Assembly (NCBI RefSeq): GCF_002159335.1
Contig: NZ_NFHP01000004.1
Span: forward strand, 186,001-250,000
DNA from: Collinsella sp. An7
GTDB taxonomy: Bacteria > Actinomycetota > Coriobacteriia > Coriobacteriales > Coriobacteriaceae
Length of the DNA stretch: 64,000 nucleotides
Direction of reading: 5' to 3'
Position 1 is the first letter of the stretch, and the number at the start of each line of letters is the position of its first letter. The position numbers were made by a program, and so were the translations under genes. The notes below the pieces were generated by a model, which did not search any database, was not told the origin of the DNA, and was given only the letters and a program-made list of their open reading frames with translations. Positions 35,061 through 50,232 of the stretch are shown here, in pieces.

Positions 35061-35948
35061 CTACCGCACAGGCGTGATGTCGGCAGATGTGCTCACGTTC
35101 CCCGCGTGCTCCCGGCGCCACGCCCGCGGCGAAACCCCGTGGACGGACTTGAACGCGCGCGAGAAATGCAACTGGTTGGGGTAGCCTACGGCCCGGCCGA
35201 CCTCGGCCACCGAGAGCGCCGATAGCTTGAGCAGGTCCGCCGCCTTCTCCATGCGGTACCCGATCAAAAACTGCTGCGGCGAGACGCCCATGGTCTCTTT
35301 GAAAATCTTGCCAAAGTAGCTGCGGTTGAGCCCCACATGGCGTGCGATGTCTTCCACGCCGATATCGCTGCGGTAGCGCTCGGCGATAAAGGCGAGCGCG
35401 GCGTCGACGTAGTAGCCGTGGAGCTTACCGGCGGAGGCGGCACGATAGGGTTCGGCCGAGCGAACAAAGCCGTCGAGAAAGCGATAGGTCTCGGCCACGA
35501 GCACAAAGGGCGACGCGGCCCGTTTGGAGAGAAGCGACCGCATGGCGGCGAGCATGTCCGCGGCGGCCTCGGGGTCCTGTGCGCGGTAGACGGGCGCGGC
35601 GGGGGAGAGCCCGAGTCGGTCGAGCGTGCTTTTGACCTGCGTGCCGTCAAACTCGACCCAGATATACTCCCAGGGGTCGGCGAGGTCGGCCACGTAGGTG
35701 GTAATCTCGGTGGGGAAGATGAGAAAGCCCTCACCGGCCGAGATGGGGTGGTCGGTGCGCTCGCCGCTTCTGTTGACGGTGGTGTAGACCCCCGAGCCGG
35801 AGATCACGTAGTGAAAGAGGTAGTGGCTGCGCCGGGCCGGGCCAAAGGCGTGTCCAGGCGAGCAGACCTCGCGCCCGTACTGGTAGGGCATGAGGTCGGT
35901 GAAGACGCCGCCCTCAAAGGTCGAGAACTCGATTTCGTGTGGACGCAT
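35061..35948 (-). CDS. AraC-family transcriptional regulator (MsmR/RafR type)
   Basis: A 295-aa regulator with an N-terminal cupin-like sensor (about residues 20-165: HYLFHYVISGSGVYTT, GEGFLIFPTEITTYVADLADPWEYIWVEFDG) and a C-terminal pair of helix-turn-helix motifs (about 190-285: IGVEDIARHVGLNRSYFGKIFKETMGVSPQQFLIGYRMEKAADLL and VGRAVGYPNQLHFSRAFKSVHGVSPRAWR). This is the layout of AraC regulators of raffinose and melibiose systems. It is divergent from the Msm-type importer, which it probably activates. ATG 35948 follows GGGAGGAACC; earlier in-frame ATGs to 36008 have no binding site. Confidence 0.92.
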   Translation of the reverse strand: MRPHEIEFSTFEGGVFTDLMPYQYGREVCSPGHAFGPARRSHYLFHYVISGSGVYTTVNRSGERTDHPISAGEGFLIFPTEITTYVADLADPWEYIWVEFDGTQVKSTLDRLGLSPAAPVYRAQDPEAAADMLAAMRSLLSKRAASPFVLVAETYRFLDGFVRSAEPYRAASAGKLHGYYVDAALAFIAERYRSDIGVEDIARHVGLNRSYFGKIFKETMGVSPQQFLIGYRMEKAADLLKLSALSVAEVGRAVGYPNQLHFSRAFKSVHGVSPRAWRREHAGNVSTSADITPVR

Positions 35949-35982
35949 GGTTCCTCCCATGGTTCTTCTGACTGCTTCAAGA

Positions 35983-36252
35983 ATATACCAATATGCAACA
36001 AAGGTCAAATAATGCTATAAATTACTGATATAGAAGAACCATAATGGTATATAGATTTTCGCATCAAGTTTATGTCTCGCATTATAGCATGAGCACACTT
36101 AAAGCCAGCATAATAGGGGTGAAACAAGAGCAGGGGGTTATAAACCGCTGCCGCCGCAAAACCGACCGTTTGGCGAAAAAGCAGCAGATGTAACCGTCTT
36201 GAAACACCATAAACTACCTGCGTAACCACAGAATATGATAATAAATATACCA
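35983..36252. promoter_or_regulatory. A/T-rich divergent control region with three ATATACCA sites
   Basis: The 408-base region between the AraC gene and the ATPase gene is far more A/T-rich than the genes. ATATACCA occurs at 35983-35990 and 36245-36252, and inverted (TGGTATAT) at 36045-36052. Such repeats are candidate sites for the AraC regulator. No other gene is seen; several TATAAT-like words prevent a single promoter call. Confidence 0.5.
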
Positions 36253-36356: not shown

Positions 36357-37466
<1,110 letters not shown>

Positions 37467-37485
37467 TCCGAGAGGAGCGCAACAC

Positions 37486-38802
37486 ATGCCCACCAAACCC
37501 ATCACGCGGCGCTCAATGCTCGGCCTTTCTGCCGCAGCGCTCTCGTCGCTCATGTTCGCGGGGTGCGCAAGCGAGGGCGCAGACGGCGCGGTCGAGGTCG
37601 AGATCGTCTCGTACAAGCAGGAGGCCAAGTCGATCTTCGATCAGATCCAGGCGGACTTTAACAAGACGCACGACGACGTCAAGCTGAAGATCGACAGCCC
37701 GGCAGACGCCGTGACCATCATGAAGACGCGCTTTGTGCGCGAGAACTACCCCGATGTCATCGGCATCGGCGGCGACGGCGACTACGCGAGCTTCACCGAC
37801 TCCGACATCCTCGCCAACGTGTCCGACTGCCCCGCGCTCGAGGAGGTCAAGCCGGCCTACACCGACATCCTCAAGAGCGTGACCTACATTCCCATGGAGG
37901 GCATCTACGGCGTGCCCTACGTGGCCAACGCCGCCGGCATGCTCTACAACAAGGACATGTTCGACGAGAAGGGATGGCCCATTCCCGAGACCTGGGATGA
38001 GCTCATGGACCTCTGCAAAGAGATCAAGGACGAGGGCCAGGTGGCGCCGTTCTACCTCGGCTACCTCGACACCTGGACGATCCTCTCCCCATGGAACTCC
38101 ATCGCCGTCAACATGGTCCCCTCCGACCTTGCCCGTCAGGTAAACGCCGGCAAGGCCAAGTTCGCCGACTACTACGCCGGTCCCGCTCGCCGCATGCGCG
38201 AGATGCTCCAGTACAGCCAGACCTGCCTGCCCGGCGAGCCCGGCCCCTTTGCCGCGAGCTACAACGACGCCTGCACGAGCTTCGCCAACGGCAAGAGCGC
38301 CATGTACCCCTGCGGCAGCTTTGCCGTGCCGCAGATCCTCACTGGCAACCCCGACATCAACGTCGGCATGTTTGCCATGCCCTCGGCCGACAACCCGGCC
38401 GACCGCATCGTGGTTTCGGGCGTCGACCTGCAGTGGTGCGTCTCGGCCGCCTGCAAGCACAAGGACGCGGTCTACGAGGTCATCGCCTATCTCTCCGACC
38501 CTGATAACCTCCAGACCTACATCTCCGACCAGCGCGCCATCCCGTGCCTCGAGGGCAATTTCCAGCTCGACCCGCTCTTTGATGGCATCCAGGAGTTCCT
38601 GGACGATGGCCGGGTGCTCGACTACCTCGACCACTCCTACCAGAGCGCCATGGCCGTCGATGCGCAGCTGCAGACGATGCTCCTCGACAACCGTGATGAC
38701 GACACCGCAATCGCCACCTTCCTCGAGAAATTCGACACCGACTGGCAGCGCTACAACCGCGATGTCATCCGCAAGGTCCAAGAATACGAGAGCCAGCAGT
38801 AA
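37486..38802 (+). CDS. Sugar ABC transporter substrate-binding lipoprotein
   Basis: A 438-aa family 1 solute-binding protein. Lipoprotein signal with a twin-arginine-like TRRSMLGLSAAALSS and lipobox FAGC (Cys27). Mature part has the SBP_bac pattern: IFDQIQADFNKTHDDVKLKI, YPDVIGIGGDGDYASF, GIYGVPYVANAAGMLYNKDMFDEKGWPIPETWDELMDL and FANGKSAMYPCGSFAVPQI. AGAGGAGCG precedes the ATG at 37486. Context (alpha-galactosidase, GH13 enzyme, AraC regulator) suggests raffinose-type oligosaccharides as ligands; this is inference. Confidence 0.92.
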   Translation: MPTKPITRRSMLGLSAAALSSLMFAGCASEGADGAVEVEIVSYKQEAKSIFDQIQADFNKTHDDVKLKIDSPADAVTIMKTRFVRENYPDVIGIGGDGDYASFTDSDILANVSDCPALEEVKPAYTDILKSVTYIPMEGIYGVPYVANAAGMLYNKDMFDEKGWPIPETWDELMDLCKEIKDEGQVAPFYLGYLDTWTILSPWNSIAVNMVPSDLARQVNAGKAKFADYYAGPARRMREMLQYSQTCLPGEPGPFAASYNDACTSFANGKSAMYPCGSFAVPQILTGNPDINVGMFAMPSADNPADRIVVSGVDLQWCVSAACKHKDAVYEVIAYLSDPDNLQTYISDQRAIPCLEGNFQLDPLFDGIQEFLDDGRVLDYLDHSYQSAMAVDAQLQTMLLDNRDDDTAIATFLEKFDTDWQRYNRDVIRKVQEYESQQ

Positions 38803-38814
38803 GGGGGATATGCC

Positions 38815-39690
38815 ATGGCAAGTCTTGCAAGAGCAAAGAGCAAGATCGGCTCCGGCCGCATGAAGACGTTCTACGCGATTCTTATCCCGGTGCTCATCCT
38901 GTTTTGTGCGTTCAACACGTTCCCGCTGATCACGGGCGTGTTCTACAGTTTTACCAACTCCAAGGGCTACGGTGCCTTTGACATCGTGGGCATTCAGAAC
39001 TACCTTGATCTCTTTAGCGACGCGCGCGTGGGAAACTCCTATCTCTTCACCTTTAAGGTGGCCGTCGTCGCCACGATCCTCACCAACGTGATCTCGCTCA
39101 TCCTGGCTATCGCGCTGTCGAGCAAGATCAAGTTCAAGAGCGCGCTGCGCGGCCTTTACTTTGTGCCGCAGATCCTGGGCGCACTCGTCGTCGGCTACGT
39201 CTTTAGCTACCTCTTTACCTGGATCATCCCGGCGCTCACCGGCTCCGAGTCGATCCTGGCATCGCCCGAGCTCGCGTGGATCGCGATCGTGGTGGTGCTT
39301 GTGTGGCAGAGCTGCGCGCAGACCACGATCATCTACATCACCGGCCTCTCGTCGGTGCCCGAGGACGTCTACGAGGCGGCGAGCCTCGACGGCGCCACGG
39401 GCTGGAACAAGTTCCGCTACATCACCTTCCCGCTCATCATGCCGAGCGTGACCACCAACATGGTGCTCGTGATGAAGAACATGCTCATGGTGTTTGACCA
39501 GATCATCGCCATGACCTCCGGCGGCCCGTCGCAGTCGACCGAGTCCATCTCGTACCTCATCTACAACAACGGCCTGTCGGGCGGCCAGTTTGGCTTCCAG
39601 TGCGCGAACGCCGTGATCTTCTTCCTGCTGATCGCGGTCATCTCGATCGTGCAGACCAACTTCCTGAGCAGCAGAGAGGAGCAGCTCTAA
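38815..39690 (+). CDS. Sugar ABC transporter permease (MalF/MsmF type)
   Basis: A 291-aa permease with six hydrophobic helices, starting FYAILIPVLILFCAFNTFPLITGVFYSFTN. The EAA loop is VYEAASLDGATGWNKFRYITFPLIMPS (about residues 183-209). AAGGGGG lies before the ATG at 38815. It is 12 bases after the binding protein gene and shares its last base with the next permease gene (TAATG). Confidence 0.93.
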   Translation: MASLARAKSKIGSGRMKTFYAILIPVLILFCAFNTFPLITGVFYSFTNSKGYGAFDIVGIQNYLDLFSDARVGNSYLFTFKVAVVATILTNVISLILAIALSSKIKFKSALRGLYFVPQILGALVVGYVFSYLFTWIIPALTGSESILASPELAWIAIVVVLVWQSCAQTTIIYITGLSSVPEDVYEAASLDGATGWNKFRYITFPLIMPSVTTNMVLVMKNMLMVFDQIIAMTSGGPSQSTESISYLIYNNGLSGGQFGFQCANAVIFFLLIAVISIVQTNFLSSREEQL

Positions 39691-40538
39691 TGGCTAAAGA
39701 CGCATTTGGGGCCAAGATTCGTGAGCGCGTCAACTGGCCCGTAACCGTGGCACTTATCCTCGTGGCGCTCATTGTCGTGGTGTTTCCGCTCTATATGACG
39801 GTGCGCATCGCCGTCTCCACCTCCATGCCCACCGGTCTCGAGATCTTCACCCTGCCCGAGCATTGGGACTTCGCGAACTTCGCCGAGGCCATGGAGGAGA
39901 CGCAGTTCTTCAGCTCCTTCATGAACTCGCTCATCATCACGGTCGTGGCCGTGGTGGTTTCGATCCTCGTGCATTCGCTCGCGGCGTACGCCATCGGGCG
40001 CAACATGGACCGCAGGGCCTTTAAGTGGAGCTATCTCTTTATCATCGCCGGCATGTACGTGCCCTTCGCGATCCTCATGATGCCCCTCGTTAAGCAAACG
40101 GCCATCATGCACCTCGACAACATGGTCGGCGTCATGATTCTCTATGTTGTGTTCTACATGCCGATGAACGTGATGCTCTACACCGGCTACCTGCGCAACA
40201 TCCCCGTTGCGCTCGAGGAGGCGGCGCGCGTGGACGGCGCCTCAACCTGGACGACGTTCTGGAAGGTGATCTTCCCGATCATGAAGCCCATGCACGCCAC
40301 CGTGGCGATCCTGACGGGCCTCGCGGTCTGGAACGACGTCATGACCCCGCTCGTCATCATGGGCGGCTCGGGCGTCTACACCCTGCCGCTTGCGCAGATG
40401 AGCTTCCAGACGGCGTTTGGTACCGACTACCCGCTGGCCTTCGCCTCGTACCTCTTGGCGATGCTGCCGATGATCATCTTCTACATCTTTGCCCAGAAGC
40501 AGATCATCAACGGCGTGACCAACGGTGCTGTGAAGTAA
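39690..40538 (+). CDS. Sugar ABC transporter permease (MalG/MsmG type)
   Basis: A 282-aa permease with six helices and a complete EAA loop, LEEAARVDGASTWTTFWKVIFPIMKP (about residues 177-202). Its ATG overlaps the stop of the previous permease gene by one base, and GAGGAGCAG precedes it. It ends the importer operon. The alpha-galactosidase gene follows after 176 bases with its own promoter-like sequence. Confidence 0.93.
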   Translation: MAKDAFGAKIRERVNWPVTVALILVALIVVVFPLYMTVRIAVSTSMPTGLEIFTLPEHWDFANFAEAMEETQFFSSFMNSLIITVVAVVVSILVHSLAAYAIGRNMDRRAFKWSYLFIIAGMYVPFAILMMPLVKQTAIMHLDNMVGVMILYVVFYMPMNVMLYTGYLRNIPVALEEAARVDGASTWTTFWKVIFPIMKPMHATVAILTGLAVWNDVMTPLVIMGGSGVYTLPLAQMSFQTAFGTDYPLAFASYLLAMLPMIIFYIFAQKQIINGVTNGAVK

Positions 40539-40714: not shown

Positions 40715-42901
40715 ATGTCGATCGTTATCGATGAAGCGACGCTCACTTTTACCCTCAACACCCGCTCCGCGACCTACCAGATGGAGGTCGACCCCCACGG
40801 GTACCTGCTGCATCTCTATTACGGTACGCGCAGTAAGGGGAGGATGGACTACCTCATCACCTACGCAGACCGCAGCGGCATGTGCGCCACGCCCCACGAC
40901 GTGCGCGACCGCACCTGGTCGCTCGACTGGCTCCCGCAGGAATTCCCCTTTGACGGCGCGGGCGACATGCGCTCGCCGCTTATCCGGGTGCGCGATGCGC
41001 GCGGCATCTACGGGTGCGATCTGCGCTACGTGCGCCATGAGGTGCGCGAGGGCAAGTACGCGCTGCCCGGCATGCCCGCCGTGTACGACGAGGGTCCCGC
41101 CGACGGGGCGCAGACGCTTTCGGTTACGCTCGCCGACCCCAGGATCGGGCTCGAGGTCGAGCTCCTCTACGGCGTCATGCCCGAGCTCGACGTGATCTGC
41201 CGCGCCGCCGTGGTGCGCAACGCGGGTGCGGAGCCCTTTACGGTCGACCGCCTGCAGACGGCCTGCCTCGACTTTACGCACGGCAACTTTGACGTCATCA
41301 CCTTTAGCGGTCGCCACGCCATGGAGCGCCGGCTCGACCGCCATTATGCCGACCACGGGAGCTTCCGCGTGGGGAGCCGCCGCGGCATGTCGTCGGGGCA
41401 GTACAACCCGTTCATGATCCTCTGCGACCGCAATGCAACCGAGAACTCGGGCCGGGCCTGGTCGATGAGCTTTGTCTGGAGCGGTGGCTTTGACGCGGAG
41501 GCCGAGCGCTCGCAATACGCCGAGACCCGCATGCAGATGGGCCTTGCCGATGACCGGTTCTCGTACCCGCTCGCACCCGGCGAGGAGCTCATCGCCCCCG
41601 AGGTCATCATGACCTACTCCGCCACGGGCCTGGGCACCCTCTCGCAGAACCTCCACCGCTGCATCCGCACGCGCGTGGTGCGCGGCGAGTGGCGCGACCG
41701 TCCGCGCCCCGTCCTCCTCAACAGCTGGGAGGCGTACTACTTCGACTTTACGGGCGACAAGCTCGTCGAGCTCGCCGAGAAGGCGGCCGAGCTCGGTATC
41801 GAGATGCTCGTGATGGACGACGGCTGGTTTGGCGCACGCAGCGACGACTTCCGCGCGCTCGGCGACTGGTACGTCAACGAGGAGAAGCTCGGCGGCACCT
41901 TGCACGAGCTCGTGGAGCGCGTGAACGCCCTCGGCCTCAAGTTTGGCATCTGGGTGGAGCCCGAGATGGTCTCGGAGGACAGCAACCTCTATCGCACCCA
42001 CCCCGACTGGGCGCTCGCCATCCCCGGCAAGGACCCGGTGCTCGGCCGCGACCAGCTCGTGCTCGACTTCTCGCGCAAGGAGGTCCGTGACAACATCTAC
42101 GAGCAGCTCTGCGCGGTGTTCGATCAGGCAAATATCGACTACGTCAAGTGGGACTGCAATCGCAACATCGTCGACCTCTACTCCGCCACCGCTACCGACC
42201 AGGGGCGCGTTCTCTACGACTACACCCGTGGCCTCTACGATGTGCTCGAGCGGCTCGTCCAGCGCTATCCTCACATCCTCTTTGAGGGGTGCTCGGCGGG
42301 CGGCTGCCGCTTTGACGCGGGCATGCTCTACTACACGCCGCAGATCTGGACGAGCGACAACACCGACGCCGTCAACCGTCTGGCAATCCAGTACGGCACG
42401 TCGTTTGGCTACCCGGCGAGCACCATGGGCGCGCATGTCTCCGCTTGCCCCAACGAGATCAACTGGCGGACGACCCCCATCTCTGCCCGTGGCACCGTGG
42501 CTATGGCGGGCGGCGGCTTTGGCTACGAGCTCGACCTTCTGGACTTGCCCGAGCGCGCCTGCGAGCACATCAAGCAGCAGATCGCCCTCTACCACAAGAT
42601 CGAGGGCGTGGTGCGCGAGGGCAGCTACTTCAGGCTGTCCGGCCCCGCAGACGAGGCCTGCGCCTGGGAGTTTGTGTCCGAAGACGGCAGCATGGCCGTG
42701 GTGGGCATGGTGCTTCTGCTCATCGAGGGTTACGGCGCGGCCCGCTACGTAACGCCCCGGGGCCTCACGCCGGGCGCCTTCTACCGCGAGCTCACCACGG
42801 GCGCGGTCTTTGCGGCCGACGCCCTCATGGACAGCGGTTTTCCGTTGCCGGTCAATGCCGAGCCGTACATGGGTCGCATCTACCGCTTCGAGCGTCTGTA
42901 G
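40715..42901 (+). CDS. aga: Alpha-galactosidase, GH36
   Basis: Removes terminal alpha-galactose from melibiose, raffinose and stachyose. 728 aa in three parts: N-terminal beta-sandwich (about 1-330), (beta/alpha)8 barrel (about 330-640) with WEAYYFDFTGDKL and MDDGWFGARSDD, and a C-terminal beta domain. Nucleophile Asp480 is in YVKWDCNRN and acid/base Asp548 in IWTSDNTDA, between them the GCSAGGCRFDAGML substrate loop. No signal peptide, so it acts in the cytoplasm on imported sugar. ATG 40715 follows GGAGG. It lies directly after the importer operon. Confidence 0.96.
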   Translation: MSIVIDEATLTFTLNTRSATYQMEVDPHGYLLHLYYGTRSKGRMDYLITYADRSGMCATPHDVRDRTWSLDWLPQEFPFDGAGDMRSPLIRVRDARGIYGCDLRYVRHEVREGKYALPGMPAVYDEGPADGAQTLSVTLADPRIGLEVELLYGVMPELDVICRAAVVRNAGAEPFTVDRLQTACLDFTHGNFDVITFSGRHAMERRLDRHYADHGSFRVGSRRGMSSGQYNPFMILCDRNATENSGRAWSMSFVWSGGFDAEAERSQYAETRMQMGLADDRFSYPLAPGEELIAPEVIMTYSATGLGTLSQNLHRCIRTRVVRGEWRDRPRPVLLNSWEAYYFDFTGDKLVELAEKAAELGIEMLVMDDGWFGARSDDFRALGDWYVNEEKLGGTLHELVERVNALGLKFGIWVEPEMVSEDSNLYRTHPDWALAIPGKDPVLGRDQLVLDFSRKEVRDNIYEQLCAVFDQANIDYVKWDCNRNIVDLYSATATDQGRVLYDYTRGLYDVLERLVQRYPHILFEGCSAGGCRFDAGMLYYTPQIWTSDNTDAVNRLAIQYGTSFGYPASTMGAHVSACPNEINWRTTPISARGTVAMAGGGFGYELDLLDLPERACEHIKQQIALYHKIEGVVREGSYFRLSGPADEACAWEFVSEDGSMAVVGMVLLLIEGYGAARYVTPRGLTPGAFYRELTTGAVFAADALMDSGFPLPVNAEPYMGRIYRFERL

Positions 42902-42978
42902 ACGCTAGGGGGCGGGTGGCACCTTCGGCTCGTCCGATGTTTCCGGCCTGAGCGGACACACCGCGCGTCACCGGTGAC

Positions 42979-43022
42979 AGGCCGATGACTCCCACGCGTC
43001 TGGCGTCTGGAGCCATCGGCCT
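42979..43022. repeat. Hairpin between alpha-galactosidase and BMP-domain genes
   Basis: AGGCCGATGACTCC (42979-42992) and GGAGCCATCGGCCT (43009-43022) pair at 13 of 14 positions. No T-run; may be an mRNA end structure. Confidence 0.55.
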
Positions 43023-43079
43023 CGGCATCGGCGTTAGGTAGGTTGTCGGGGCCGTCCGTGTTGCAAGAGGGGAGAGCGC

Positions 43080-45038
43080 ATGCTCGACGACTACCGTCGC
43101 GCGCGCAAGCGCGGCATCAAGGAGTTTCAGTCCGACGTCCAGGCGGGCCGTTATCCGTATCCTCCGGCCCTCGACGATATCCTCAAAGGTCAGGGCTATC
43201 AGGGTGAGGTGCCCATCGGTACGACCGAGATCGACCTCCCGCTCATCGCGGGCACCCGCACGCGGGGGCGGCAGAACAGCTTCTCGTCGGGGTTCATGCC
43301 GCTTCAAGAGGCCGGCTCGGAGTTTGCGAGCAAGTGGAGCGACCTCATCGACTCGCAGCGCGCCGAGGGCATCCGCGAGCCCATCGTGGCCTACGAGTAC
43401 CTGCAGCGCTTCTATGTGCAGGAGGGCAACAAGCGCGTGTCGGTTCTGCGCTACCTCGGCCAGCCGACCATCTACGCCAAGGTCACGCGCGTGGTGCCCA
43501 TGCCCTCCGACTCCCAGGCCTACCGCGTCTACCAGGAGTTCATGCGCTTCTATAGCGCGGCCCCCATCTACGGCATCGTGTTTGACAACGAAGGCGACTA
43601 CCTCAAGCTCGCGGCGCTCGTGGGTGAGGACCTCGACCACCCCTGGACCGACGAGCACGTGCGCGACCTCCGCTCGCTCTACGGTGTGTTTGCGCAGGCG
43701 TTTCGCAACCGCCACGGCGAGAACCTCGGCCTCTCGGAGGGTGCTGCCTTTCTCATCTTTCTCAAGGCGTACGGGTTCCCGGCGGTGGAGCGCGCCACGC
43801 CCGCCGAGATCGACGGCTATGTGGCGCGCGTGTGGGGCGAGTTTGTCGTGGCGCGCGACGGGGGCCACGTCACGTACCTCGAGGACCCCTCGGGCGGCCG
43901 GCCACACCTCTTTCCCGAGGTCAAGAACCTCTATCACGATGTGGTGCACCCCAAGCCCTTCAGCCTCGCCTTTGTGTACGAGCGCAACCCGCTCACCAAC
44001 GGTTGGACGCTCTTGCACGAGAAGGGGCGCGTGCACCTCAAGGCGCGGCTCGGTGCGAGCGTGATGACGCGCGCCTACCCCGACTGCGCGGACGACGAGG
44101 CCTTTGACCATGCGGTCGACGATGCCCTCGCCGATGGGGCCGATCTGGTGGTCACCATCTCGCCCACGCAGATGCGCTCGTGCCTGCGTGGAGCGCTCGC
44201 CCATCCGGGTCGGCGCTTCATCAACTGCTCGGTGAGCCTCTCGCACAGTGCGGTGCGCACCTTTGCCTGCCGGACGTACGAGGCCAAGTTCTTGCTCGGC
44301 GCGCTTGCTGCGGCCATGGCCGAGAACCACCGCGTGGGCTATGTGGCCGAGACGCCGGTCTTTGGCATCGTGGCCGAGATCAACGCCTTTGCCATCGGCG
44401 CTCAGATGGTCGATCCGTACGCGACGGTCTATCTCAAGTGGTTCTCGGCCAAAGACTACGACTGGAAGCGCGAGCTCGCCGAGACGGACGTGCGCATCGT
44501 TTCGGCGCGCGACTACGTGAGCCCCAACGACCCAACCGAGCCGTGGGGTCTCTACCGCATCGGTGACGACGGTGTGGCGGAGCATCTGTCCGAGCCCGTG
44601 TGGGACTGGGGGCGCTACTACGAGCTCATCGTGCAGTCCATTCGCAACGACACTTGGGAGGAGGAGGGTCTTGCCCGGCGAGGCGAGGCGCTCAACTACT
44701 GGTGGGGGCTCTCGGCGGGCGTGATCGACGTCAAGCTCTCCGATGCCGTGCCCTACGGACAGCGGGTGCTCGTGGAGGGGATTCGGCAGTCGCTCCTCAC
44801 GGGGCGCATCAATCCTTTTGCCGGCGAGCTCGTGAGCCAGGAGGGCGCCGTGCTGCACGAGAGCCCCGAGCGCCTCTCGAGCAAAGAGATCGTGCAAATG
44901 CGCTGGCTCAACTCCAACGTGGTGGGGCGCCTGCCCGAGCAGCGCGAGCTCTCGCGCGATGGCCTTGAGAAAGTCGAGGTGAGCGGCGTGATTCCGCTTG
45001 ATCTGGAGCAGCTGCCGCACAAGGGAGCGCTCTCATGA
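43080..45038 (+). CDS. Cytosolic BMP (PnrA-like) domain protein with ParB-like N-terminal region
   Basis: A 652-aa protein without signal peptide or membrane segment. Residues about 1-90 are family-specific (GRYPYPPALDDIL; LIAGTRTRGRQNSFSSGFMPL). About 100-135 resembles a ParB/Srx nucleotide-binding core (PIVAYEYLQRFYVQEGNKRVSVLRY). About 295-520 is a BMP/PnrA-like periplasmic-binding fold (FSLAFVYERNP; LVVTISPTQMR; FLLGALAAAMAENHRVGYVAETPVFGIVAEINAFAIGA). PnrA proteins bind nucleosides outside the cell; here the fold is cytosolic. ATG 43080 follows GAGGGGAG. It overlaps the next gene, a phosphoesterase, by four bases. Function unknown. Confidence 0.75.
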   Translation: MLDDYRRARKRGIKEFQSDVQAGRYPYPPALDDILKGQGYQGEVPIGTTEIDLPLIAGTRTRGRQNSFSSGFMPLQEAGSEFASKWSDLIDSQRAEGIREPIVAYEYLQRFYVQEGNKRVSVLRYLGQPTIYAKVTRVVPMPSDSQAYRVYQEFMRFYSAAPIYGIVFDNEGDYLKLAALVGEDLDHPWTDEHVRDLRSLYGVFAQAFRNRHGENLGLSEGAAFLIFLKAYGFPAVERATPAEIDGYVARVWGEFVVARDGGHVTYLEDPSGGRPHLFPEVKNLYHDVVHPKPFSLAFVYERNPLTNGWTLLHEKGRVHLKARLGASVMTRAYPDCADDEAFDHAVDDALADGADLVVTISPTQMRSCLRGALAHPGRRFINCSVSLSHSAVRTFACRTYEAKFLLGALAAAMAENHRVGYVAETPVFGIVAEINAFAIGAQMVDPYATVYLKWFSAKDYDWKRELAETDVRIVSARDYVSPNDPTEPWGLYRIGDDGVAEHLSEPVWDWGRYYELIVQSIRNDTWEEEGLARRGEALNYWWGLSAGVIDVKLSDAVPYGQRVLVEGIRQSLLTGRINPFAGELVSQEGAVLHESPERLSSKEIVQMRWLNSNVVGRLPEQRELSRDGLEKVEVSGVIPLDLEQLPHKGALS

Positions 45039-45628
45039 AAATCCTCGCCGTCGCCGATGCCGAGGAGCGTTGGCTTACCGACCCCGAGGCCTGCCGTGAG
45101 CGGACGGGAGACGTGGACCTGATCGTATCGTGCGGCGACTTGCCGGCGCGCTACCTCGAGCACGTCGTGACTATCTACAACGAGCCGCTGGTGTATGTGT
45201 GGGGCAACCACGACAGCGCCTATCGCGATCACGCACCCGAGGGCTGCATGTCCCTTGAGGGGCGCATCCGCGAGGTGGCGGGCCTTCGCGTGATGGGGCT
45301 CGGCGGGAGCCTCCGGTACAACTCGAGCGTCTTCGGCTTCTCCGAGCGCGAGATGTACTGGCGGATGCTCAAGCTCGCGCTCACGGCCAAAGCCCGCGGC
45401 GGAATCGATCTGCTCATCACGCATGCGCCCGCCCGCGGCTACGGTGACCTCGACGACCTTCCGCACCAGGGGTTCGAGGCGTTCAACACCGCCCTGGAGA
45501 TCCTCCGCCCGCGCTATCTGCTCCACGGGCACGTGCACCCCGAGTATGCGCGGATCCACCGCCTGATCGAACATCCCTCGGGCACCCAGATTATCAACTG
45601 CTGCGGTTATCAGATCCTCGAATGGTAG
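45035..45628 (+). CDS. Calcineurin-like metallophosphoesterase coupled to the BMP-domain gene
   Basis: A 197-aa metallophosphoesterase. Motifs in order: VADAEERW (the usual DxH first motif is DxE here), VSCGDLPARYL, VWGNHDSAY, LITHAPARGYGDL and LHGHVHPEYAR. These bind two metals and hydrolyse phosphodiesters or monoesters. The ATGA overlap with the BMP-domain gene implies tight translational coupling and a shared pathway. Substrate unknown; a nucleotide would fit a nucleoside-binding partner, which is inference. Confidence 0.88.
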   Translation: MKILAVADAEERWLTDPEACRERTGDVDLIVSCGDLPARYLEHVVTIYNEPLVYVWGNHDSAYRDHAPEGCMSLEGRIREVAGLRVMGLGGSLRYNSSVFGFSEREMYWRMLKLALTAKARGGIDLLITHAPARGYGDLDDLPHQGFEAFNTALEILRPRYLLHGHVHPEYARIHRLIEHPSGTQIINCCGYQILEW

Positions 45629-47373: not shown

Positions 47374-50073
47374 CTACGCGGCGGCGAGGCGCACGAGCTT
47401 GAGCACGAAGTCGACGGTGCCCACGTTGTAGCCCGCGCTCGCGTAGCGGCCGATGAGCCGCCCCGTGCGCACATCCACGAGGATCGCGAGCGGGAGCTTC
47501 TCGGGGTTTACGAACATACGGCGCGCGAGTCGCTCGGCATACGCATCAAAGTCGCAGGTCATAAGCTGCGCTGCGGGCAGCGCCTCGAGCGTGTGGCTGA
47601 GCGTCGGGTCGCGGCGCGCAATGTCCGCATCGCTTACGGCACACACGAGCGCAAGCCCCGCCTCTGCCACGCGGTCGGCGTGCTGGCGCAGCTCGTTGAG
47701 CAGGTGCTCGGTGGGCTCCTCCGCGGGCTCGAGCAGCGCCACGAGCGCAAAGGAGGCGCCGTGCGCGGTGGCTGCGGTATGCGCCGTGGTTGGCTCGCCG
47801 GCAGCGTCCTCGAGCGGGAAGTCGTCGAGCGGGATGTCGCAGAGCATGTCCACAGCCTTGGGCTCGCGGAACTCAAGTGCTACCATGCGCTCTGCGGCGG
47901 CATCGGCTATATCGAAGTCGAGCTCGCTTGCCAGCTGGTTGCCGTTGGGCAGGCGCACCGCGGTCGTGAGGCGGTAGCGCCCGGGGGTGACGTCCACAAC
48001 GAGCTTTCCATCCGCAAACGCAGACCCCCACAGGTCGAGCATCTGGTACTCGCGGCAGGTGGCACCGCTCGGGGCAACGGCGCAGACCGCGGCGGCAAGG
48101 CCCCAATCCTGCTCGTAGATGGGCGACATGCCCTCCGGGCACGTGAGCACAAGGTGGGCGCGCGGCGTTGTGTCCACCGCCTCCGCGCGGCGGAACGCCC
48201 CTTCGGCAAAGAACTCGGGTGCGCGGTCCACCGGGTTCAGGCGTGCCGGGATGCCGAGCGTGCGGGCGATAGCCACAAAGAGCCCGCGCTGCGTGGAGGG
48301 ATTGCCCTGGTGCGAGACGAGCGCTCCCACCGGTGAGGCCGCCAGGTGCATGAGCTGGCGTGCCGGGTCAAAGGTCACGTTCTCGCGAATGAAGGTCCAG
48401 ATGCTGGCGGGGTCCTCGGCAAACGAGCGGCGCTGGTCCTCGTCGAGGAGGTCGAGCAGGCCCGTACGATACGGGGTGAGCTGCTCGATATCGGTGCGCG
48501 GGCTCAGCACGTAGCGACGGAAGAGGTCTGATGCCTCGGCCGCGTCAAGATCCTGCGCAAGAAGGGAGCGTTCCACTGCATCGCGGAGGGCCCGGGCGTG
48601 CTGCAGGTGGTCCTCGAGCACCGCGGCGCACAGGTCGCGGAAATCTTTGTCGGAAAGCGTGGAGACGAGCTCCAGGCGGTCGCGCGCGATATCCTCGGTG
48701 AGAAACGCCTCAAGTTCGGGGGCGTTGGCAAACGAGAGCGAGAAGATGCCCGCAAGGGTGCGGCCGTCCGGCAGCTCGACGGAGCAGCCCGCCTCCGCAT
48801 AGCGTGTCGCCACGCGTTCGGCTGCCTCGTGCACTGCGGCGGCAAGGCCTTGGAGCCGCTCCACGCGCATACGGTCGGCCTCGGCCTTGCGCACGCGCCC
48901 CGCCGCCTGCTGCTCGGGCGTGAGCGACATCGAGGGGGCCGGATGGTCCGCCGGGGCGTCGAGGTCAAGCGCGCGCCAGGCGGTGGCGGGGAAGGCGGCA
49001 TCATACGCCGCGAGCTGCAGGTGCACCTCGTGCACGGAAGCGGTGTCGATGATCGTGTCGGCCTCGCCCGTGGCCGTGCGCGCGTAGACGCGGAGCGACC
49101 CTGCGCCCACCTCGATCGCCGCGTGGCCGTCCTCATCGGTAACCAGGCGGGCGATGTCGCGCCAGCCGCCGGCGTTCATGATGGAGAGGTCCACGTCCAC
49201 GCCCGCCGCGGGCGCGCCGGTGGCATCTGCCACCTCAACGGTTAGGGTGATTACGGGGGCATAGGAGGAGGTCACGTTGACGATGACCATGTCGCCCTCG
49301 CGCGTCAGGCGGGCGCGGTCGCGTTCAAAGTTAAAGCCAAAGTCGGCGTAGGTACGGGTCTGCACCGCCATGGCGCGGCCCGAGGCGGCGGTAAACCAAC
49401 CCCGGTCGAGAGCCTCCTCGGGCTCACACGCCCCGAGGTAGTGCCAACTGCCGTCTACCTGGGCCTCAACCCAGGCGTGGTTGTCGTCGCAGTGCGCCCA
49501 CCACGGCACGTAGAGCTGGCGCGCCGGGATGCCGATGGAGCGGAGCGCCGTGACGAGGAAGGTGGACTCCTCTCCGCAGCGGCCGTCACCCGAGGCGAGC
49601 ACCCCGAGCGGACCGAGCGTACGGCCGTCGGACGCCTGGTAGGTGGCGTGCTCGGCGCACCAGTAGTTTGTCTCGATCACGGCCTCCGCGGCGCTCTTGC
49701 CCCGCATGCGCTCGACGAGCTCACGCCAGAAGACGGGGCGGCAATCGGTGACGGGTTCGGTGTTGATGCGCGGATAGGCCACAAAGTGCACAAAGGTGGG
49801 TTCGTCGAGGGCGGCGCACCAGGGCATCTCGCGGCGCAGCATGAGGGCGTGGCGGGCAAACGAGGCGAGGAGCGCAGGCTCGGTGTCAAACACGTCGGAC
49901 AGGGGGAGCGTGGCGCAGAAGAAGCGGACGAGCAGGGCCTCATCGGCTTCGAGGGCGGCGAGCTCCGCCTCGATGTGCGGCATGACGGGCGCGAGCTCGC
50001 TGGCACGCGCGGCGAGGTGCTCGTCGGTGTAGCGTGCGAGCGTGGTGGAGAGCAAGGGTTCAGAAGCGGTCAT
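47374..50073 (-). CDS. Large transglutaminase-like protein
   Basis: An 899-aa protein. After a helical N-terminal region comes a transglutaminase/protease-like core (about residues 125-235) with Cys166 in GDGRCGEES, His199 in DDNHAWVE and GACEPEEALDRGWFT in place of the usual catalytic Asp. A beta-sandwich segment follows (about 255-360, VTLTVEVADATGAPAAGVDVDLSI), then a long helical region and a second transglutaminase-like region (about 555-640: FIRENVTFDP, GNPSTQRGLFVAIARTLGIPARL), and a C-terminal thioredoxin-like end (LPLAILVDVRTGRLIGRYASAGYN). No signal peptide. The ATG at 50073 has only a weak GGAA site. Confidence 0.78.
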   Translation of the reverse strand: MTASEPLLSTTLARYTDEHLAARASELAPVMPHIEAELAALEADEALLVRFFCATLPLSDVFDTEPALLASFARHALMLRREMPWCAALDEPTFVHFVAYPRINTEPVTDCRPVFWRELVERMRGKSAAEAVIETNYWCAEHATYQASDGRTLGPLGVLASGDGRCGEESTFLVTALRSIGIPARQLYVPWWAHCDDNHAWVEAQVDGSWHYLGACEPEEALDRGWFTAASGRAMAVQTRTYADFGFNFERDRARLTREGDMVIVNVTSSYAPVITLTVEVADATGAPAAGVDVDLSIMNAGGWRDIARLVTDEDGHAAIEVGAGSLRVYARTATGEADTIIDTASVHEVHLQLAAYDAAFPATAWRALDLDAPADHPAPSMSLTPEQQAAGRVRKAEADRMRVERLQGLAAAVHEAAERVATRYAEAGCSVELPDGRTLAGIFSLSFANAPELEAFLTEDIARDRLELVSTLSDKDFRDLCAAVLEDHLQHARALRDAVERSLLAQDLDAAEASDLFRRYVLSPRTDIEQLTPYRTGLLDLLDEDQRRSFAEDPASIWTFIRENVTFDPARQLMHLAASPVGALVSHQGNPSTQRGLFVAIARTLGIPARLNPVDRAPEFFAEGAFRRAEAVDTTPRAHLVLTCPEGMSPIYEQDWGLAAAVCAVAPSGATCREYQMLDLWGSAFADGKLVVDVTPGRYRLTTAVRLPNGNQLASELDFDIADAAAERMVALEFREPKAVDMLCDIPLDDFPLEDAAGEPTTAHTAATAHGASFALVALLEPAEEPTEHLLNELRQHADRVAEAGLALVCAVSDADIARRDPTLSHTLEALPAAQLMTCDFDAYAERLARRMFVNPEKLPLAILVDVRTGRLIGRYASAGYNVGTVDFVLKLVRLAAA

Positions 50074-50140
50074 GGCGTTTCCATCTAGCAGGAGGTTTGC
50101 GGTAGTGCACGGTGACGCGGGCCTGTTCCAACGGGACGCG

Positions 50141-50173
50141 GCGCCCGTGCGCAGCGAAGCGCGGGCACGGCGC
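50141..50173. repeat. GC-rich hairpin with GCGAAGC cap
   Basis: GCGCC and GTGC on the left pair with GCAC and GGCGC on the right, with bulges, around GCGCAGCGAAGCGC. It lies in the 159-base gap between the fucosidase stop and the transglutaminase-like start (both minus strand). Confidence 0.4.
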
Positions 50174-50232
50174 ACGGCCTGCGCTCCAGAGACCCAGAGG
50201 CGCGGCCCAAGCAGCCCCGCGCGCAGCGGTCC

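Follow-up and report, generated by a model that had tools for sequence, protein, structure and literature searches.

A ParB-like/BMP fusion protein and its metallophosphoesterase partner: a candidate control module for sugar metabolism in Coriobacteriia

The window analysed here, a 64,000-nucleotide stretch of the Collinsella sp. An7 genome (Coriobacteriaceae), carries two overlapping genes downstream of a co-directional CUT1 sugar importer and a GH36 alpha-galactosidase (Table 1). The first encodes a 652-aa protein, named LRG, and the second a 197-aa metallophosphoesterase, named MPE. LRG starts behind a strong ribosome-binding site, GAGGGGAGAGCGC-ATG, and its stop codon overlaps the MPE start codon in the sequence ATGA. 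Both the long BMP/ParB-like protein and the four-base overlap had been described in the initial annotation, and both are real. Fifteen full-length relatives, 59-75% identical, keep the start, length and reading frame of LRG. The genome has its relatives in Collinsella and Enorma, and a survey of the class found one LRG copy per genome. A strong hairpin, GGCCGATGACTCC...GGAGCCATCGGCC, with no T run after it, lies in the 178 bp that separate GH36 from LRG (42902-43079). Elsewhere in the window, a 933-aa open reading frame (47374-50175, minus strand) has no NCBIfam match at E 1e-10.

Table 1. Positions of the LRG-MPE pair, its predicted domains and the adjoining sugar genes in the window.
Feature	Coordinates	Strand	Basis
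AraC-family regulator (MelR/AraC-like), divergent from sugar operon	35061..36008	-	NCBIfam below cut-off: AraC E 2.6e-20, MelR E 1.6e-15
CUT1 sugar importer: UgpC/MsiK-type ATPase, SBP, two permeases	36360..40538	+	NCBIfam UgpC above cut-off E 9e-143; carbohydrate SBP; UgpA/MalG-type permeases
GH36 alpha-galactosidase, next gene before LRG, 178 bp apart	40715..42901	+	PF02065/PF16875/PF16874
LRG gene	43080..45038	+	ORF; 652-aa putative ParB-like + DUF4032-like + BMP (type I periplasmic-binding-fold) fusion, most likely cytosolic
ParB/Srx-like module + DUF4032-like helical region (predicted), ~residues 1-255	43080..43840	+	hhalign, PDB profile matches
P-motif segment YVQEGNKRVSVLRY, residues 112-125; GxxR = G116-N-K-R119	43413..43454	+	invariance in 58 LRGs
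BMP / PBP type I substrate-binding domain, residues 292-652	43953..45035	+	PF02608 E 6.7e-11; AtzT 6pi5; 3s99; pocket mapping
ATGA start/stop overlap of LRG and MPE	45035..45038	+	sequence
MPE gene	45035..45628	+	PF12850/PF00149; calcineurin-like, first-motif His missing (D8-A-E10)

The distribution of the two genes was surveyed in 298 genomes of the Coriobacteriia, 87 of which contain LRG. In all 87, MPE directly follows LRG, with contig and strand shared and a median gap of 29 nt, and the strong MPE-profile matches fall in exactly these 87 genomes. Weak matches elsewhere amount to one BMP-only match to LRG (G038) and six to MPE. The pairing is obligate in the class and far beyond chance. The pair is also found in Clostridia, in Subdoligranulum (L033) and on a contig of faecal origin that is catalogued as phage (L058), which agrees with the similar long BMP proteins of gut Clostridia mentioned in the initial annotation. 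Viral contigs were searched for LRG and none was found. On the IMG/VR contigs L062 (4998), L063 (4792) and L064 (3595), the MPE gene immediately borders a mobile element with a serine recombinase, and LRG is missing from the available stretches, which would fit an insertion of the element that separated the two genes.

The C-terminal part of LRG is a substrate-binding domain. In the first 70 residues of LRG, no hydrophobic N-terminus is found (maximal 19-residue Kyte-Doolittle mean of 0.35), in contrast to the SBP of the same operon, with a maximum of 1.54. This bears out the missing export signal noted in the initial annotation, and because the stretch present in the neighbouring importer's SBP is lacking, LRG is most likely cytosolic despite its substrate-binding domain. 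Pfam Bmp (PF02608) covers residues 315-465, and using phmmer, residues 292-619 were aligned over the full length to AtzT (6pi5, E 3.7e-30) and 3s99 (E 4.7e-24), which have guanine and adenine, respectively, as ligands. These matches uphold the PnrA-type fold proposed earlier, but not the nucleoside or purine pocket attached to it. When the guanine contacts of AtzT were mapped onto the LRG alignment, the stacking position of Tyr45, occupied by the invariant Trp309 in LRG, was the sole purine contact kept. The position of Ser97 varies among LRGs; Pro362 stands in for Phe98, which contacts guanine by its backbone NH, and Gly429 for Glu165, while Asn218 and Asn220 have no conserved counterpart in the alignment. 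The equivalence of Trp194 is uncertain, as it aligns with D459 in a gapped stretch with W454, Y460 and W462 nearby. Among 58 diverse LRGs, W454, C383-S384, R393, E401 and W510 are invariant, and N382 and D478 are kept in 57. Since these residues are invariant while the AtzT contacts are lost, the BMP domain likely has a conserved pocket other than the known purine pocket. No second BMP protein is encoded in the same genome.

Profile comparisons were employed to assign the N-terminal half. Using hhalign, residues 3-189 were aligned with a family of standalone ParB/DUF4032 proteins (prob 98.3, E 1.7e-14), arguing that the N-terminal half of LRG is homologous to them. A profile combining the N-terminal halves with two standalone relatives matches only three PDB chains, namely sulfiredoxin 6ky4 (E 0.0034), Spo0J 6sdk and ParB 4umk; a profile from the standalone family alone finds no ParB chain in the PDB. 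The residues E115-G116-N117-K118-R119, which include the GxxR motif, are invariant in 58/58 LRGs, and so are S121, V122 and E153, the last a possible equivalent of Box III. Of 18 standalone members, six match DUF4032 (best E 2.2e-11), and weak matches of the family include ParBc_2, ParB_N, SerK and Noc. No Pfam model, PF02195 included, matches LRG residues 1-290. An AF2 model of the N-terminal half, built with 17 close relatives, reached a pLDDT of 56.9 and gave no significant match with Foldseek; at this low confidence (pLDDT 57), it places a helical region at residues 146-255 after the ParB core. Because structure prediction failed, the fold call rests on the profile evidence and motif conservation, which point to a diverged ParB/sulfiredoxin-fold module, as the initial annotation had proposed. 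Such a domain may bind an NTP. The canonical ParB features, a DNA-binding HTH and a C-terminal dimerisation domain, were not matched by Pfam in LRG, and the gene has no parA neighbour, being flanked by GH36 and MPE. In four genomes (G207, G108, G201 and G230; loci L049, L051 and L050 are from G207, G108 and G230), LRG matches its profile as two pieces within a single open frame, split at about residue 140-148 in the first three and 274-291 in G230. The splits appear to mark insertions particular to these lineages, placed either behind the ParB core or ahead of the BMP domain.

The partner protein could be modelled with confidence. The AF2 model of MPE has a pLDDT of 90, and its best Foldseek match is MPPED2 (3rl4, E 1.3e-9), followed by Dbr1. 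D8, D35, N58, H59, H130, H166 and H168 are conserved in 73/73 LRG-linked MPEs. The first metal motif had been described as DxE instead of DxH, which is correct for the Collinsella sp. An7 protein and does not extend to a family-wide Glu: position 10 is E in 66 and P in 7 of the LRG-linked MPEs, and V in 26, A in 1 and E in 1 of those linked to ParB/DUF4032 genes. Given this variation among E, P, V and A, the family has lost the first-motif His ligand rather than exchanged it for a conserved Glu.

MPE of the same type accompanies ParB-like proteins that have no BMP domain. Of 20 Actinomycetota loci sampled, 15 have it next to the standalone ParB/DUF4032 gene, and so does Tsukamurella, where CUT1, UgpC and alpha-amylase genes lie alongside. 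In Cetobacterium (Fusobacteriota), the ParB-like and MPE pair stands beside sugar permeases and glycogen phosphorylase, and the C-terminal part of the ParB-like protein matches no Pfam family. As BMP-less homologues usually adjoin the same MPE type, the ParB-like protein and MPE form the core unit, to which the BMP domain was apparently added as a lineage-specific sensor in Coriobacteriia and Clostridia. In Actinomycetota other than Coriobacteriia, 9/20 loci have a CUT1 permease pair in the vicinity of the ParB/DUF4032 gene versus 1/20 controls, and 6/20 versus 0/20 have GH13 there. Pairing in Actinomycetota is not absolute, since at L087, L088, L089 and L091 the ParB/DUF4032 gene has a CUT1 operon close by and no MPE gene up to 6 kb away. 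Short ParB-like relatives of about 160 aa are found on Rubrobacter plasmids; one of them (L059, 3842-4321) belongs to a cluster of arsenic-resistance genes, close to which a different metallophosphoesterase is encoded.

The genes around the LRG-MPE pair point to sugar, mainly galactosides. The block UgpC-SBP-permease-permease-GH36 followed by the pair is syntenic in eight related loci (L002, L003, L005, L006, L008, L014, L015 and L016). Of 57 Coriobacteriia loci, 38 have GH36, GH42, GalK or GalT within ~6 kb of the pair, versus 0/20 control windows, which were taken from class genomes that are complete or nearly so. Some of the 57 loci share a genome or come from close relatives, and because of this relatedness, Fisher p-values for gene co-occurrence overstate independence. 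Although relatedness weakens the statistics, a functional link can be argued since the galactoside genes come in at least five arrangements. Besides CUT1-GH36-LRG-MPE, the pair is convergent with GalK-GalT(-GH36), follows GH36-GalT-GalK in a single direction (L036), precedes GalK-GalT (L013, L105 and L108), stands between GH42 and UgpC (GH42-LRG-MPE-UgpC, L048) or is convergent with GH36-CUT1 (L109). In the survey of 298 genomes, LRG is present in 45 of the 48 genomes with GH36, and GalK in 84 of the 87 with LRG; GH36 lies less than 20 kb from LRG in 37 genomes and GalK less than 10 kb in 30. Sugar genes are not found beside C. aerofaciens-type copies, which are near ribosomal genes, several Atopobiaceae loci, most Rubrobacter-type loci (these names inferred from relatives) or both Clostridia loci. 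No nucleoside genes stand out around the pair in the neighbourhood survey.

Since the pair sits among galactose-utilisation genes, these data suggest a module for the control of sugar metabolism that has not been described before. Tentatively, at somewhat under an even chance, LRG and MPE would form a two-gene cytosolic module of a sensor and a phosphoesterase that serves sugar, mainly galactoside, catabolism. The BMP domain of LRG would capture a small molecule; the likeliest candidates are sugars, sugar phosphates and nucleotide sugars from the galactose pathway, as cytosolic sensors of the LacI/GalR type use the same PBP fold. In the ParB/Srx-type domain, the invariant GxxR motif would serve to bind an NTP. 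The state of LRG with respect to ligand and NTP would, possibly through physical interaction, control the co-translated MPE or be reset by it, and MPE may hydrolyse a small phosphoester as effector or reset enzyme. A bolder version is doubtful, in which the fusion is a new metabolite-gated NTP switch that senses a galactose-pathway metabolite and controls its own phosphoesterase, with the core reused with different or no sensors in several phyla. The low pLDDT of the N-terminal model (57), which leaves the NTP pocket without structural support, the copies that lie away from sugar genes, the relatedness of the loci and a BMP domain closest to purine-binding proteins speak against the sugar-sensor module.

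The purine link also bears on the proposal of the initial annotation, a cytosolic nucleoside or nucleotide sensor with a BMP domain for purines or nucleosides, a ParB domain for nucleotides and MPE as a (cyclic) nucleotide phosphodiesterase. The purine ligands of AtzT and 3s99, MPPED2 as the nearest MPE structure and the retained stacking aromatic W309 agree with it. The pocket mapping against AtzT has lowered it to an unlikely reading, as the polar guanine contacts are lost, with a Pro at the residue whose backbone NH contacts guanine, and sugar rather than nucleoside genes are prominent near the pair. SerK and Srx carry out phosphate transfer with a ParB/Srx fold, and the pair could likewise be a kinase and phosphatase or a metabolite-repair system, in which a sugar or a by-product is phosphorylated by the ParB/Srx fold and dephosphorylated by MPE, for example relieving toxic galactose-1-phosphate. 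GalK and GalT adjoin the pair, and the standalone relatives have D-G-(N/H)-H-R, with 4/18 weakly matching NCBIfam SerK; however, the best of these matches has an E of 0.014, and in EGNKR the LRG proteins carry Glu and Lys in place of the motif's Asp and His, making this quite unlikely.

A DNA-binding transcription regulator like LacI/GalR, with a ParB-like clamp replacing the HTH, would explain the PBP type I sensing fold, the helical region behind the ParB core and the location in catabolic operons. It is improbable, as no HTH family is matched in LRG while ParB proteins bind DNA through a separate HTH domain, an AraC regulator already lies beside the operon, and MPE would be left without a role. 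The match of MPE to a candidate defence model, PDC-S10 (E 4e-14), raised a phage-defence module, which was rejected as very improbable: the match spans the common phosphoesterase fold, no defence model matches LRG, and the context is catabolic with one copy per genome.

ParB-type folds have lately been shown to be versatile NTP-binding modules, and their metabolic roles are almost unknown. If the sugar-sensor reading is true, an obligate ParB-like/phosphoesterase pair across phyla would link the ParB fold to sugar control in gut bacteria. Found in galactose and alpha-glucoside operons, the pair offers a concrete two-protein system with candidate ligands and with R119, K118, W309 and W454 as predicted key residues of LRG. 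The literature search returned no paper on the LRG-MPE pair and none on the function of DUF4032 or the standalone family. LRG is rated as a putative ParB-fold fusion of unreported make-up, with a well-supported, uncharacterised partner gene.

According to the main text of Kaljevic et al. (2025, PMC12704722), ParB-CTPase folds are often fused and bind several NTPs, and an R-to-A change in GxxR abolishes NTP binding in other ParB-fold proteins. The survey described there used PF02195 as query, which does not detect LRG. Like these fusions, SerK and sulfiredoxin, LRG appears to join a GxxR P-motif fold to a lineage-specific domain outside parAB operons; the motifs in this group are GERR, GCHR or GHHR, whereas LRG has EGNKR, and that main text does not contain the words phosphoesterase, periplasmic or BMP or mention a PBP/BMP fusion. 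The standalone DUF4032/ParB-like proteins of Actinomycetota and Cetobacterium have the ParB-like and DUF4032-like region in common with LRG, usually the same MPE type and often CUT1 transporters, but no BMP domain and DGNHR or DGHHR where LRG has EGNKR. BMP proteins of the AtzT/PnrA type, to which LRG residues 292-619 align in full, are exported lipoproteins with a signal peptide, while LRG has no signal, is the sole BMP protein of its genome and has lost the purine contacts. MPE shares the calcineurin-like fold of MPPED2/YfcE-type enzymes and keeps all canonical metal and catalytic positions checked, except the His of their DxH first motif, where its family has E, P, V or A. The LacI/GalR regulators would work in a similar way and are, as LRG is predicted to be, cytosolic proteins of sugar operons with a PBP type I sensing domain; they carry an N-terminal HTH, in place of which LRG has a ParB-like module and a phosphoesterase partner.
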